Positions 42,928 to 48,351 of a stretch of 64,000 nucleotides of DNA are shown piece by piece. Position numbers and translations under genes: made by a program. Below the pieces are notes generated by a model. That model did no database searches. It saw only the letters and a list, made by a program, of their open reading frames with translations, and was not told the origin of the DNA. The stretch comes from Cellulophaga sp. 20_2_10 (GTDB lineage: Bacteria > Bacteroidota > Bacteroidia > Flavobacteriales > Flavobacteriaceae): the NCBI RefSeq assembly GCF_023476645.1, contig NZ_JAMCOJ010000002.1, positions 95,561 to 159,560 of the forward strand. The letters are read 5' to 3'. The first letter of the stretch is position 1; each line of letters begins with the position of its first letter.

Positions 42928-44037
42928 TTGATTAAGCTACACGACAAATATTTTAGACCTTATTTAACCGAGCAGGAGATTTTAGCTGCGGTTAAAAATA
43001 TAGCGGATAAAATTGCCGAGGATTACAAAGATGAAGTTCCGGTTTTTATTGGCGTGCTCAATGGCTCTTTTATGTTTGTTGCAGATTTGCTTAAAGCATA
43101 CCAGCACAATTGCGAAGTTTCTTTTGTTAGACTAAGTTCTTACAGCGGATTGTCTTCTACAGGAATTGTAGAAACATTAATAGATGTATCTGAAACGATT
43201 GAGGGCAGAAGTGTAATAATATTAGAGGATGTTATAGATACTGGCCGTACTGTTAAAGAACTGGTGCATATGTTTAGCAACAGTAACGTTAAGGAATTTA
43301 AAATAGCTACGTTGTTTTACAAACCATCTGTGTACAGTGGTGAGTATAACATAGATTATGTAGGTATAGAAATTCCGAATAAATTTATTGTAGGTTACGG
43401 ACTAGATTATAACGAGCTTGGACGAAACTTAAAAGAAGTGTATCAACTAAATCAAAATAATATGATAAATCTTGTACTATTCGGGAAACCGGGAGCTGGC
43501 AAGGGCACACAGGCAAATTTTTTAAAAGAACAGTACAATTTAAAACATATTTCTACAGGAGATGTGTTTCGTTACAATATAAAAAATGGTACGGAATTAG
43601 GAACGCTAGCTAAATCTTTTATAGATAAGGGTGAGTTGGTACCAGATGAAGTAACTATTAATATGTTAAAGGAAGAGGTAGAGAAAAATCCGGATGCAAG
43701 CGGGTTTATTTTTGATGGTTTCCCTAGAACAACGGCACAGGCAGAAGCATTAGATAACTTTTTATCTACAAAAGATATGAAGATTGATGCAACAATTGCT
43801 TTAGATGCTAATGATGAGATTTTAATTCAGCGTTTATTAGAACGTGGTAAAGTTAGCGGTAGATCTGATGACCAAGACGAAAACAAAATTCGTAACAGGT
43901 TTGATGAGTACAACCAGAAAACGGCTCCATTACAAGCATATTACGATAAACAAGGAAAGTTCCATACTGTAAATGGTATAGGAGAAATAAAAGAGATTAC
44001 AACAAGGTTAAGTAAAGTAATAGATACTTTAAAATAA
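42928..44037 (+). CDS. adk: Hypoxanthine phosphoribosyltransferase-adenylate kinase fusion
   Basis: A two-domain enzyme of 369 residues. Residues 1-178 are a hypoxanthine-guanine phosphoribosyltransferase: PRPP motif 'IILEDVIDTGRTV' (97-109), 'VLNGSFMF' (43-50) and the C-terminal 'GYGLDYNELGRNL'. Residues 179-369 are a complete adenylate kinase: P-loop 'GKPGAGKGT' (186-194), 'STGDVFRY', 'DGFPRTTAQAEAL', a short LID without zinc cysteines and 'SGRSDDQDENKIRNRF'. The upstream frame closes 15 bases before a TTG at 42928, which is the only reasonable start. An ATG at 43462 (residue 179) coincides exactly with the normal adenylate kinase start. The fusion salvages purine base to IMP/GMP and interconverts adenylates. 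obgE follows after 38 bases. Confidence 0.92.
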   Translation: MIKLHDKYFRPYLTEQEILAAVKNIADKIAEDYKDEVPVFIGVLNGSFMFVADLLKAYQHNCEVSFVRLSSYSGLSSTGIVETLIDVSETIEGRSVIILEDVIDTGRTVKELVHMFSNSNVKEFKIATLFYKPSVYSGEYNIDYVGIEIPNKFIVGYGLDYNELGRNLKEVYQLNQNNMINLVLFGKPGAGKGTQANFLKEQYNLKHISTGDVFRYNIKNGTELGTLAKSFIDKGELVPDEVTINMLKEEVEKNPDASGFIFDGFPRTTAQAEALDNFLSTKDMKIDATIALDANDEILIQRLLERGKVSGRSDDQDENKIRNRFDEYNQKTAPLQAYYDKQGKFHTVNGIGEIKEITTRLSKVIDTLK

Positions 44038-45191: not shown

Positions 45192-45719
45192 ATGAAAAGC
45201 TACGTATCTATACTTGTAATTCTACTTTTAGTTTCTTGTAATACCATACGCGTAAATTATGACTACGATAAGGAGTTAGATTTTACTGCATATACTACAT
45301 ATGGTTTTTATGAAGATATGGAAACGGGTTTAAACGATCTAGATACAAAGCGCTTATTAAACGCAATAGAGTCTGTAATGCGTAATAAGGGGTTTAAACT
45401 TGCAGAAGAGCCAGAATTATACATTAATATTACTACGCAGGTTTATAAAGGTGCACCAGGCAATTCTGTAGGTGTTGGTTTAGGTGGCGGAGGCAACAAC
45501 CTTGGTGGTGGCCTATCTGTAGGCTTACCAATAGGAGGTGCAAAGCTAGAACGTGAAATTAAATTCGATTTTATAGATGCACAGAGAGATGTATTAGTTT
45601 GGCAAGCAGTTAGTATAAGTGGTTATAAAGAAAACCAAACTCCAGATGCAAAAGAACTAAAACTACTACAAATAGTAGAAAAAGCACTAAGTAAATATCC
45701 TCCTAAAACAAAAGAATAA
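45192..45719 (+). CDS. DUF4136 lipoprotein
   Basis: 175 residues, lipobox 'LVSC' (Cys16). 'VNYDYDKELDFTAYTTYGFYED' and 'INITTQVYKG' are the DUF4136 pattern. A Gly-rich loop (residues 97-116) lies in the middle, and 'WQAVSISGYKENQTPDAKELKLLQIVEKALSKYPP' closes the domain. Periplasmic; function unknown. It is followed by a weak hairpin and then the small-peptide region. Confidence 0.85.
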   Translation: MKSYVSILVILLLVSCNTIRVNYDYDKELDFTAYTTYGFYEDMETGLNDLDTKRLLNAIESVMRNKGFKLAEEPELYINITTQVYKGAPGNSVGVGLGGGGNNLGGGLSVGLPIGGAKLEREIKFDFIDAQRDVLVWQAVSISGYKENQTPDAKELKLLQIVEKALSKYPPKTKE

Positions 45720-45791
45720 CTAGTTTATCTGTTACAAGATAGTTAGTTACGTATACTAAATACGGCTATTTCAATTCATTTCTTCAAAATT

Positions 45792-45821
45792 ACCGTTCGC
45801 TATTCTTAAATTACCGTTTGT
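45792..45821 (+). promoter_or_regulatory. LytTR-type operator 1
   Basis: Two 9-bp direct repeats, ACCGTTCGC (45792-45800) and ACCGTTTGT (45813-45821), with 12 bases between them, so their starts are 21 bp apart (two helical turns). The second fits the LytTR consensus [TA][AC][CA]GTTN[AG][TG] fully, the first at eight of nine positions. It is followed after 33 bases by the -7-like element of the first peptide gene. The likely binding protein is the LytTR regulator at 47602. Confidence 0.7.
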
Positions 45822-45854
45822 CATAAAACGTATTTTTTAAGAGATAATGCGCTG

Positions 45855-45862
45855 TACATTTA
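45855..45862 (+). promoter_or_regulatory. -7 element of the first 44-residue peptide gene
   Basis: TACATTTA, one base off TAnnTTTG, placed exactly as the -7 element of the second peptide gene relative to its LytTR operator (63 bases from operator start in both). Confidence 0.5.
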
Positions 45863-45904
45863 CATCATAATCAAACAATTATTAACAACTTAAATTATTG
45901 TATT

Positions 45905-46039
45905 ATGAAAAATAAAATAGCAATCATCAAAAGAGCAGAACAAATTAAAGCCTTATTAATATGTAGCATTATAGCAATAGTGCCAGTATACCACGTAGGC
46001 TACAAATTAGGTGGTGCTATTGTACAGTTATTTGTATAA
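45905..46039 (+). CDS. 44-residue single-helix membrane peptide A
   Basis: ATG at 45905, TAA at 46037-46039, 44 residues. The N-terminal third is basic and polar (KNKIAIIKRAEQIK), followed by a hydrophobic helix 'ALLICSIIAIVPVYHVGYKLG' and a short tail 'GAIVQLFV'. The same length and plan (polar start, one helix, 'GY-x-x-G' and a hydrophobic tail) are found in the peptide at 46234, so the two are probably paralogues. It lies under a promoter with a LytTR-type operator. Codon use looks normal. Function unknown; a small regulator or sensed membrane peptide is possible. Confidence 0.6.
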   Translation: MKNKIAIIKRAEQIKALLICSIIAIVPVYHVGYKLGGAIVQLFV

Positions 46040-46063
46040 GAAACCAAGGCGTTAACGTGTATT

Positions 46064-46093
46064 ACCGTTTAGGTTTTAAATACTACCGCTCGC
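46064..46093 (+). promoter_or_regulatory. LytTR-type operator 2
   Basis: ACCGTTTAG (46064-46072) and ACCGCTCGC (46085-46093), 12 bases between them, starts 21 bp apart. The first half is a full consensus match, the second is weaker. The whole block is displaced by exactly 272 bases from operator 1, with 'ATAAA' conserved just downstream. It lies just downstream of peptide gene A. Confidence 0.65.
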
Positions 46094-46126
46094 CATAAAT
46101 TACCTAAAAAGACATTTAAACTATTC

Positions 46127-46134
46127 TATTTTTG
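46127..46134 (+). promoter_or_regulatory. -7 element of the second 44-residue peptide gene
   Basis: TATTTTTG, a perfect TAnnTTTG, 63 bases after the start of operator 2, the same distance as in promoter 1. No clear -33 TTG is seen, as expected of an activator-dependent promoter. Confidence 0.6.
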
Positions 46135-46233: not shown

Positions 46234-46368
46234 ATGCAGAAACAAACAACTCAAACTCAAAAAGTAAATACAATTGCTTACGGTATTTTAATTAGCACTT
46301 TTGCTCTTGTACTACTTTTTGGTTTAGGTTATAACTTTGGGAAACTTCTGTACCACTTGGGATTTTAA
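46234..46368 (+). CDS. 44-residue single-helix membrane peptide B
   Basis: ATG at 46234, TAA at 46366-46368, 44 residues. The polar Gln/Thr-rich N-terminus (QKQTTQTQKVNT) is followed by the helix 'IAYGILISTFALVLLFGLGYNFG' and the tail 'KLLYHLGF'. Identical in length to peptide A and sharing the Gly-Tyr-x-x-Gly junction and the tail of about eight residues, though little other identity remains. It lies downstream of LytTR-type operator 2, a perfect -7 element and an ATCA-rich leader. It may be co-transcribed with the sensor kinase gene at 46517. Confidence 0.6.
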   Translation: MQKQTTQTQKVNTIAYGILISTFALVLLFGLGYNFGKLLYHLGF

Positions 46369-46408: not shown

Positions 46409-46462
46409 ATGATACTACTAGCAGAATTATTGATTATCGTAATTTTAAACATTATCGCTTAA
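46409..46462 (+). CDS. 17-residue hydrophobic mini-ORF
   Basis: ATG at 46409, TAA at 46460-46462: MILLAELLIIVILNIIA. It is almost wholly hydrophobic, resembling a bare membrane helix, preceded by the A-rich leader 'CTTAAAAAAACACATT' that would suit flavobacterial initiation. It lies 54 bases before the sensor kinase start. Chance ORFs of this size are common; the evidence is composition and position only. Confidence 0.35.
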   Translation: MILLAELLIIVILNIIA

Positions 46463-46516
46463 GCCTACGAATAAAAAGCTTTTATTAGCGTATTAATGTA
46501 TTAGAATAAAAACTAA

Positions 46517-47605
46517 ATGAAACTTATAAATAACTGGAAATACTGGGTCTTTGCCTTAATAGCGTGGTTAGTTTTAATACTTTCTACACTTACTTTTGAC
46601 AAAATCTCTTATGGAGTAGAAGTAGCCAATGATAGTAAATACTACGGTTATATAGGTTACTTGGTAGCAGAAGGTATTGCATGTGGCTTACTAGCATATG
46701 CACTGTCTTTTATACTATTATACTATATAGAAAAATATATAGCATTTGGGAATCTTAAAAAAGGCAACGTTGTTGTATTGGTATTGCTCTTTATAGGTGT
46801 GCAAATTTTGTACTCTTTATTACTATGGCCTATGTTAGATATAGTGCAAGGGTTTACAGATTATTCCCCGAATTCTAAGCTATTAGACCGGATGAGTTTA
46901 TTTATGCGTGTAGCTAATATTCCTTTTTTCTCGGCAATGTTTGTAATATGGCTCTTTACAATATTAGTTATAAAGGCTTATGATTATAACAAAAATATAA
47001 CCCTTAAACAATTTAAGTTAGAGGGTAGTTTAAAGGAGTCGCAACTAAACTCTTTAAAAGGGCAAATTAACCCTCATTTTATGTTTAATAGTTTAAATAA
47101 TATTAGAGGTTTAATGTTAGAAGACGTTAGTAAATCTAGAGATATGCTAACAAAATTATCAGAGATGCTACGGTATTCTCTTATTAAAAATGATGTAAAC
47201 TCTATTGCTCTAGAAGAAGAATTAGATATGGTAGAGAATTACATTGCATTGTCTAAAATTCAGTTTGAAGATAGATTAGAATTTATAAAAGAAGTAGATC
47301 CAAACTCGTTAGCTGTTTCTATACCACCAATGATAATACAGCTATTAATTGAAAATGCTGCCAAACATGGAATTGCAAATTTAATTAAGGGAGGAACAAT
47401 TACTTTAATAACAAACAGAACCGAAGATTATTTGCACATTATAGTAAGGAACACAGGGAAATTAAAAATAGTAAAAGGTTCTACGCAATTAGGCCTTAAA
47501 AATATAAAACAACGACTACGGTTGTTATACGGAAACTTAGCAGAGTTTTCTTTAGATGAGGTTGAAGACGAAGTAGTAGCAAATATTAAAATACCAATGG
47601 TATGA
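46517..47605 (+). CDS. Sensor histidine kinase, LytS/YehU type
   Basis: Inner-membrane kinase of 362 residues. Four hydrophobic helices (about 10-27, 44-72, 86-108, 132-153) without a large sensor domain are followed by a linker helix and the His_kinase domain: phospho-acceptor His187 in 'LKGQINPHFMFNSLNNIRGL' and ATP-binding N-box 'LLIENAAKHG' (about 276-285). The G-box is 'TQLGLKNIKQRL'. Its stop overlaps the start of the response-regulator gene by four bases (ATGA). The upstream peptides and their LytTR operators suggest that this system controls, or is modulated by, small membrane peptides. Confidence 0.92.
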   Translation: MKLINNWKYWVFALIAWLVLILSTLTFDKISYGVEVANDSKYYGYIGYLVAEGIACGLLAYALSFILLYYIEKYIAFGNLKKGNVVVLVLLFIGVQILYSLLLWPMLDIVQGFTDYSPNSKLLDRMSLFMRVANIPFFSAMFVIWLFTILVIKAYDYNKNITLKQFKLEGSLKESQLNSLKGQINPHFMFNSLNNIRGLMLEDVSKSRDMLTKLSEMLRYSLIKNDVNSIALEEELDMVENYIALSKIQFEDRLEFIKEVDPNSLAVSIPPMIIQLLIENAAKHGIANLIKGGTITLITNRTEDYLHIIVRNTGKLKIVKGSTQLGLKNIKQRLRLLYGNLAEFSLDEVEDEVVANIKIPMV

Positions 47606-48351
47606 GTATGATTAAAGCAGTTATAGTTGAAGATTCTAGATTAGCTAGAAATGAGCTAAAAGAATTGATAAAAAATCACGGCGAGATAGAAATTGTTGGT
47701 GAAGCTGAGAATGTAGACGAAGGTTACAGGTTAATAAATGAAACGCAACCAGATCTTTTGTTTTTGGATATTAATATGCCAGAAAAAGATGGATTTGAGC
47801 TTCTTGAAATGCTAGATAAAGTTCCAATTACGGTATTTACCACGGCTTTTGATGAATATGCAATTAAATCTTTTGAGTACAATGCATTAGATTATATTTT
47901 AAAGCCAATAAATGGCAAACGTTTTGCAAAAGCTATAGAAAAGGTAAAAGCGCAGTTAGAAGGTTCTGCACCCGTTAGCAATGAGGAAAATGAAACTACT
48001 GAGGCTAAAGAAAAACTAACAGAGAGTAGTCAGATTTTTATAAAAGATGGCGATAAATGTTGGTTGGTTAAAATAGGAGATATTTCTTTATTTGAAATTG
48101 TAGGCAATTATACACGTGTGTATTTCAATGGAGAAAAACCAATGCTATACAAGTCTTTAAATCAAGTTGAAGAAAAATTACCAGAACATAACTTTTTTAG
48201 GGTAAATAGACAGCAAATTATTAATGTGAACTATATTTCTAACGTTGTACCCTGGTTTAATGGCAAACTTAAATTAACTATGAATACGGGTGAAGAAGTA
48301 GAGGTGTCTAGAAGGCAATCTTATATATTTAAAGATAAAATGAGTATCTAA
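47602..48351 (+). CDS. LytTR-family response regulator
   Basis: 249 residues. Receiver domain (1-125): acidic pocket Glu10-Asp11, phospho-acceptor Asp56 ('LLFLDINMPEKDGFELL'), Lys101 ('YILKPINGKRFAKAI'). A linker rich in Glu (125-145) leads to the LytTR DNA-binding domain (about 148-249) with 'IFIKDGDKCWLVKIGDISLFEI', 'YFNGEKPMLYKSLNQVEEKLP' and 'FFRVNRQQIINVNYI', the family core. LytTR proteins bind pairs of 9-bp direct repeats 21 bp apart; two such pairs lie upstream at 45792 and 46064. No terminator follows directly, and the 170 bases to the next gene hold only a weak AT hairpin (48439-48458). Confidence 0.94.
   Translation: MSMIKAVIVEDSRLARNELKELIKNHGEIEIVGEAENVDEGYRLINETQPDLLFLDINMPEKDGFELLEMLDKVPITVFTTAFDEYAIKSFEYNALDYILKPINGKRFAKAIEKVKAQLEGSAPVSNEENETTEAKEKLTESSQIFIKDGDKCWLVKIGDISLFEIVGNYTRVYFNGEKPMLYKSLNQVEEKLPEHNFFRVNRQQIINVNYISNVVPWFNGKLKLTMNTGEEVEVSRRQSYIFKDKMSI

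Follow-up and report, generated by a model that had tools for sequence, protein, structure and literature searches.

Two LytTR-type promoters and a conserved 17-residue micropeptide ORF beside a histidine kinase-response regulator pair of Cellulophaga

The LytTR regulator AgrA controls very short, leaderless, amphipathic peptides, the phenol-soluble modulins, as is proposed for the regulator described here, and YpdAB consists of a membrane kinase of the His_kinase family and a REC-LytTR regulator, as does the pair described here. To our knowledge, ORFs of 17 codons are normally omitted from annotation; therefore, a micropeptide that accompanies the same two-component system in many genera can escape notice. 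In the LytTR Regulatory Systems (LRS), which comprise a LytTR regulator and a membrane inhibitor, direct repeats ca. 12 bp apart are described just upstream of the promoters of the LytTR operons, which are positively autoregulated (PMC6193735). MgrB and other small kinase regulators are described as very small membrane proteins under the regulator of their own system (PMC2789325, PMC8404706).

We analysed a stretch of 64,000 nucleotides of Cellulophaga sp. 20_2_10 (the window), in which two blocks of the same layout precede a kinase-regulator pair. The displacement of the blocks by exactly 272 bases, as given in the earlier note on this DNA, was confirmed by inspection of the sequence. The direct repeat of the first block, P1 (45792..45825, + strand), is ACCGTT-N15-ACCGTT with the extension TGTCATA, and its half-sites (45792-45797 and 45813-45818) are 21 bp apart from start to start; the -7 element TACATTTA lies at 45855..45862 (+). 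In the second block, P2, the repeat (46064..46097, +) is ACCGTT-N15-ACCGCT with the extension CGCCATA (half-sites 46064-46069 and 46085-46090, 21 bp apart), and the -7 element TATTTTTG lies at 46127..46134 (+). The -7 element was said to begin 63 bases after the first half-site, which is true of both P1 and P2. Two ACCGTT-type half-sites 21 bp apart had also been claimed; the spacing holds in both blocks, but the half-sites are so only in P1, the second half-site of P2 being ACCGCT. Both blocks carry two ACCGTTNRK-like half-sites ca. 21 bp apart upstream of a core promoter, and the last base of the pattern (K) deviates in one half-site per block. The geometry matches the tables of LytTR repeats in PMC6193735, where the LRS-like Bacteroides examples end in TATCTTTG, preceded by repeats of the ACCG....TCA type, close to the second half-site here. 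Both -7 elements agree with the Bacteroidota sigma-A box TAnnTTTG, a consensus from a flavobacterial promoter map (PMC9723704); it is exact in P2, and P1 differs at the last base.

A 44-aa ORF with a single predicted TM segment, ORF A (MKNKIAIIKRAEQIKALLICSIIAIVPVYHVGYKLGGAIVQLFV; 45905..46039, +), lies behind P1 and has relatives in two other loci (L127 and L128). Behind P2 lies a second 44-aa single-TM ORF, ORF B (46234..46368, +), which also has relatives and carries a C-terminal GY..GK.LYHL motif; the TM segments of both were assigned by hydropathy. ORF A had no match in Pfam (E ≤ 0.01) or NCBIfam (E ≤ 0.1), ORF B had none in either, and none of the 44-aa, 69-aa and 130-aa proteins scored above a curated cut-off in these databases. 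Between P2 and the kinase follows pep17 (46409..46462, +), the ORF of a 17-aa hydrophobic micropeptide, MILLAELLIIVILNIIA, of a conserved type that shows a coding signal in relatives. These micro-ORFs behind P1 and P2 are the main content of the locus, and the earlier note had overlooked them. The membrane histidine kinase (PF06580; 46517..47605, +) has ca. four hydrophobic segments, and the start of the REC + LytTR response regulator (47602..48351, +) overlaps its stop. Between P2 and the kinase, the + strand has just one further exact TAnnTTTG (46332), which lies within ORF B, so that P2 plausibly reads through to the regulator. An AT-rich inverted repeat, aataaaaagcttttatta, was seen by eye between pep17 and the kinase (46463-46516) and could modulate read-through. 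The upstream neighbour of P1 is a DUF4136 lipoprotein-like gene (45192..45719, +), whose membership in the regulon is unsupported; a similar gene occurs in some relatives, namely in 22 of the best 80 of 482 loci described below, as counted with a rough motif too crude to prove absence elsewhere. Further upstream, a 369-aa ORF (42928-44037, +) appeared, from its translation by eye, to combine an N-terminal half that resembles a hypoxanthine phosphoribosyltransferase with a C-terminal half that resembles an adenylate kinase.

Like LytSR and BtsSR, the pair combines a membrane kinase of the His_kinase family with a REC-LytTR regulator, and the regulator aligns to the BtsR and LytR models. It scored 168.6 bits, however, against the BtsR equivalog cut-off of 246, and 164.5 against the LytR cut-off of 375. 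In the domain scan of the kinase, only His_kinase was above the cut-off, with HATPase below it, and the 5TMR-LYT sensor domain was absent at E ≤ 1, unlike in LytSR. The pair had been called LytS/LytR, and the name LytS is loose for a kinase of this composition. No lrgAB-like neighbour was recognised by eye among the window ORFs. The locus resembles the LRS (HdrRM and BrsRM of Streptococcus mutans and the LRS-like operons of Bacteroides) in having a LytTR regulator and repeats before the core promoter of its own operon (PMC6193735). It is unlike them in that a transmembrane inhibitor and the lack of a kinase mark the LRS, whereas here the regulator contains a REC domain, its gene overlaps that of a histidine kinase, and micropeptides and small TM ORFs are present.

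Kinase orthologs were sought in a first sample of 149 genomes of the family Flavobacteriaceae. In all 14 cases found at E ≤ 1e-70, including the window, a site can be recognised, with a short hydrophobic ORF behind it; the site is weak in L215, with 6 mismatches, and in L055 and L056, with 3 each. The ORF encodes 17 aa in the window, L214, L215, L049, L050, L051, L053 and L054, 18 aa in L047, L052 and L055, 20 aa in L044 and 24 aa in L077; in L056, a 28-aa ORF ends in the 17-mer. In relatives, the first ORF past the promoter usually encodes a peptide of the pep17 type (e.g. MIALAKLIISLLVSIIL). Among these 14, the ORF starts 95-126 nt past the first half-site, the exceptions being L056 and the window, where pep17 is the second ORF after P2, behind ORF B, at 345 nt. 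In L051 (G026), tandem kinase-like ORFs of 364 and 351 aa lie on the reverse strand between the LytTR site and the regulator.

Further loci were fetched by regulator alignment (8 of the 14 orthologs) without use of the site, and the best 80 of 482 confirmed loci were taken. They come mainly from Cellulophaga, Maribacter, Muricauda/Allomuricauda/Flagellimonas, Croceitalea and Croceivirga, with the closest regulator among them in C. fucicola (96%). Among these best 80 of 482, a peptide-type ORF was found in all 79 loci holding the DNA (L152 being the one without it) and, by eye, one with an ATG start in 78 of the 80; the ORFs of L145, L146 and L183 exceed the usual length or resemble the others less, and that of L199 starts with GTG. 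A strict filter retained 67 exact 17-mers of 66 distinct DNA sequences from the same 80. Position 6 is K in 63 of the 67, unlike in the window peptide (E), and positions 10 and 14 are often S, T, D or N. Since the filter favours such sequences, a filter-free test was made, in which the first-ATG ORF after the kinase-nearest site encoded 17-18 aa in 63 of 77 loci, as compared to 4.4% in shuffled DNA. Diversity at codon positions 1, 2 and 3 of the 67 17-mers was 0.50, 0.13 and 0.61, respectively, and 0.68 in the downstream flank, and pN/pS was 0.46 in the reading frame as opposed to 0.67 and 2.3 in the two alternative ones. Adenines at -12 and -11 of the ORF start are nearly invariant, which fits the adenine-rich start context known in Flavobacterium johnsoniae (PMC6847099). 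Taken together, length conservation, codon-position diversity, pN/pS and start context strongly support translation of the 17-aa ORF, and on these sequence grounds there is little doubt that it is translated.

Residues 3, 6, 10, 14 and 17 of the peptide share one helix face, and the mean hydrophobic moment was 0.27 (n = 67) versus 0.18 in shuffled peptides, with 0.20 for the window peptide. In the site-bearing loci examined, pep17-type ORFs lie within ca. 2 kb of a kinase ortholog, as judged by comparing coordinates by hand.

Based on these results, the locus as a whole may best be explained by a regulator that activates its own operon, which also encodes a membrane micropeptide whose probable role is to tune the kinase next to it, a model that we consider reasonably likely. 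P1 and P2 would be activator-dependent sigma-A promoters, and their assignment to the adjacent LytTR response regulator appears highly likely. The phosphorylated regulator would bind, immediately before the core promoter, the two half-sites, which lie 21 bp apart on one DNA face, the second being extended to ACCGTTNGTCATA, and would switch on, rather than repress, two short units. P1 would drive ORF A. P2 would drive ORF B and the 17-aa peptide, and its transcripts would run on into the genes of the kinase and the regulator, so that the system would be positively autoregulated; judging from the sequence, a single P2 operon with autoregulation is probable. The peptide is predicted to be helical in the membrane, where residues 6, 10 and 14 would form a narrow polar stripe, and would most likely be a feedback subunit on the neighbouring membrane kinase, as MgrB is on PhoQ. 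Across the family, ankyrin-repeat proteins, S9-type peptidases and alpha/beta hydrolases would be among the further targets. We prefer the feedback model since the peptide lies within the distance given above in the examined loci, whereas the enzyme and ankyrin targets occur also away from the kinase.

The likeness to MgrB and other small kinase regulators would lie in a very small membrane protein under the regulator of its own system, with which the promoter and gene order here are consistent (PMC2789325, PMC8404706). Unlike the 47-aa MgrB, the peptide has 17 aa and is encoded next to the kinase, with no sequence relation shown; an action on the kinase, proposed by analogy, is put forward tentatively. 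Somewhat more speculative is the idea that peptides of ca. 17 residues are the dedicated, obligate partner of one Flavobacteriaceae kinase clade, either setting the gain of the kinase or being part of the sensing unit, with hydrolases and ankyrins as the downstream response. If this model is true, the partner of the sensor kinase would be a very small protein, with a peptide helix shorter than MgrB and made by the regulator of the system itself, and the locus would provide a defined promoter code for finding the whole regulon. The case also illustrates that a promoter pattern in raw sequence can lead to unannotated genes. No description of this peptide or module was found in the open-access literature searched, mostly at the level of listings, and the locus points to a signalling module that is, as far as searched, new to the literature.

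The peptides may instead be an output of the system, being switched on by the regulator and membrane-active on the envelope of the cell itself or of its neighbour, which we regard as rather unlikely. They are short and leaderless, have a polar stripe and are often encoded by the first ORF of the unit, and AgrA of Staphylococcus aureus, a LytTR regulator, controls phenol-soluble modulins. The LytTR systems of S. mutans are likewise described as controlling bacteriocins (PMC6193735). However, the peptides are very hydrophobic (mean Eisenberg hydrophobicity, 0.78) and carry about one charge each, which is sometimes reversed (K to E), and are therefore not typical cationic lytic peptides. Besides, they adjoin the kinase in the loci examined, and no export or immunity gene was recognised by eye. 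The phenol-soluble modulins differ further in coming from a different phylum, the present peptides being more hydrophobic and nearly uncharged, with no export system seen.

A role of the 17-aa ORF as a leader, with its translation adjusting expression of the kinase operon through coupling or attenuation and the peptide product being of no importance, also seems improbable. The short distance between the ORF and the kinase or a small ORF downstream, as well as the AT-rich inverted repeat seen by eye between the ORF and the kinase in the window, would suit such a leader, but second codon positions are strongly conserved and third positions free, the hydrophobic pattern and the helix stripe are retained, and the gap to the kinase is variable and holds other ORFs in many relatives.

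The association of the site with the kinase was evaluated in 397 genomes of the family. A shorter site pattern (≤1 mismatch) matched in 43 genomes; there were 52 matches versus 19 for the control (hand count), and some of the 52 are therefore due to chance. A kinase ortholog (E ≤ 1e-60) was found in 45 of the 397, and the site was present in 31 of these 45 as compared to 12 of the 352 kinase-less genomes (Fisher p 1e-25; both sets entered by hand and matched as the same 397 genomes by their handles). This co-occurrence supports the reading of the blocks, offered in the earlier note, as LytTR-type promoters of the adjacent pair. Ten of the 14 genomes that have the kinase but lack the strict site were examined, and nine of them (G056, G059, G085, G113, G120, G138, G143, G240 and G392) have weaker sites and a short hydrophobic ORF; the tenth, G224, shows no such site within 1.5 kb upstream. 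Nine of the 12 site genomes without kinase were examined (all but G133, G202 and G380), and eight of them lack a -7 element at +63. The ninth, G207, has a site with a -7 element at +63 and no kinase ortholog at E ≤ 1e-60. In this genome (L082), as in L097 and L098, LytTR-type sites with a -7 element at or near consensus at +63 lie upstream of similar 369-aa ORFs, and the L082 protein gave an EstD-like alpha/beta hydrolase match below the cut-off.

Outside the family, the composite pattern (≤2 mismatches) was applied to 395 genomes of the phylum, of which 41 belong to the family and ca. 354 do not (hand count). Four genomes matched, namely the genome under study and G176 within the family and G665 and G494 outside it, where no peptide or kinase was seen alongside by eye. 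The outside matches equal the two control matches, and G320, which has a kinase ortholog, gave no match, so that the pattern is not fully sensitive at this setting; all that can be said is that, with these settings, nothing indicates the site beyond the family. A tie to the F. johnsoniae kinase/LytTR mutations of a coevolution experiment (PMC10197871) was dropped, as the kinase ortholog was absent at E ≤ 1e-60 from both sampled members (G127 and G317) of genus g128, which we guessed to be Flavobacterium.

Within the genome, the exact half-site pair occurs once in the 64-kb window (0 of 100 shuffles). Genome-wide, the bare pair at ≤2 mismatches was not enriched (347 matches versus 520 for the reversed control). 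The scan with ACCGTTNRK-N12-ACCGTTNRK (≤1 mismatch) proposed in the earlier note failed to single out the promoters, as it returned two matches, P1 and one on contig C55, versus three for the control, and P2 was absent. The exact short matches in the genome were four: P1, one within a coding ORF and two upstream of ankyrin-repeat genes; the C55 match was set aside since it falls within a 482-aa ORF. Comparison of the P1, P2 and ankyrin promoters revealed a common longer second half-site, ACCGTTNGTCATAAA, and the same -7 element at +63. ACCGTT-N15-ACCGTTNGTCATAAA at ≤3 mismatches matched exactly four sites in 4.17 Mb (control, 0), namely P1, P2 and two before duplicated, apparently secreted ankyrin-repeat genes on contig C58. 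Its fit to P1 and the C58 sites is by construction, because the pattern was drawn from them; this does not apply to the zero control or to the conservation in relatives, and the longer second half-site is what separates sites from the control.

The composite site (≤4 mismatches) was present at least once in 77 of the best 80 of 482 loci, the others being L145, L152 (which has almost no upstream DNA) and L189. In 830 kb of these loci, the pattern at ≤5 mismatches matched 124 times forward and 0 times on the other strand, and the reversed pattern matched 2 + 2 times. Among half-site spacings from 17 to 26 bp in these 80 loci, 21 bp was found in 117 pairs, the next best being 17 bp with 23 pairs; the -7 element stands at +63 in 78 of the 117, and the next best offset was found in 4. 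The 62 sites with a peptide close behind gave the consensus TTACCGTTC-N12-TTACC[GA][CT]TNGTCATAA, with TT at +40/+41 and TAnnTTT at +63, and several of its columns lay outside the search pattern; L127, L128, L129, L138 and L142 are left out, as their exact 17-mer is further from the site. In a test for a -33 element ca. 19 bp before the -7 element, T was found at +40 in 87% and at +41 in 95% of the 62, the corresponding bases being AT in P1 and CT in P2.

These data also bear on whether the repeats serve another of the LytTR proteins of the genome, with the adjacent pair as a bystander. The genome has 18 LytTR genes, and because G207 has no ortholog of the kinase at E ≤ 1e-60, another regulator may share its site. 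Nevertheless, the site co-occurs tightly with this kinase and is found in 77 of the best 80 of 482 loci to which the search with this regulator led, and the genome, for all its 18 LytTR genes, holds only four extended sites, of which the only two beyond P1 and P2 are those of the C58 ankyrin genes, ca. 32 kb from the LytTR gene of that contig; we therefore consider a bystander pair very improbable. That the two blocks resemble each other by chance or simple duplication, with no regulatory meaning, is scarcely conceivable, as the extended site has zero control matches and is conserved across genera with a preferred geometry, which already contradicts this notion despite the lack of genome-wide enrichment of the bare pair.

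The other ORFs behind the sites encode 40-48-aa single-TM proteins, 60-69-aa proteins, ankyrin-repeat proteins, S9-type peptidases and alpha/beta hydrolases, the annotated target proteins being single examples. A strict regular expression for the 40-48-aa single-TM ORFs with a C-terminal GY..G..L..L-like motif detected eight sequences in 7 of the best 80 of 482 loci. In a rough tally of sites distinct in sequence (≤3 mismatches), 77 were followed by a peptide, 14 by a single-TM ORF of the 44-aa kind, 12 by a small protein of 60-69 aa, 10 by an ankyrin-repeat protein and 34 by others; these shares mean little because the loci were gathered by kinase, regulator and site searches. In L139, L154, L161, L162, L164, L205 and L206, an extra LytTR-type site (ca. 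560-1180) lies ca. 2.3-3.0 kb upstream of the peptide site, and the gene at the extra site is an ORF of roughly 510-520 aa or longer. The proteins of L139 and L154 match Peptidase_S9, and those of L161 and L164 weakly match propeller-like models; all four were scanned as partial sequences, and the matches are partial.

On contig C58 (86.2-87.0 kb; L003/L004), the two tandem ankyrin-repeat genes are near-identical, encode 126 aa each and have identical LytTR sites; secretion of the ankyrin-repeat proteins was judged by eye from the N-terminus. A third relative of 132 aa lies downstream and has no site with the patterns used. One of the two copies has consecutive AAT repeats in the 5' leader.
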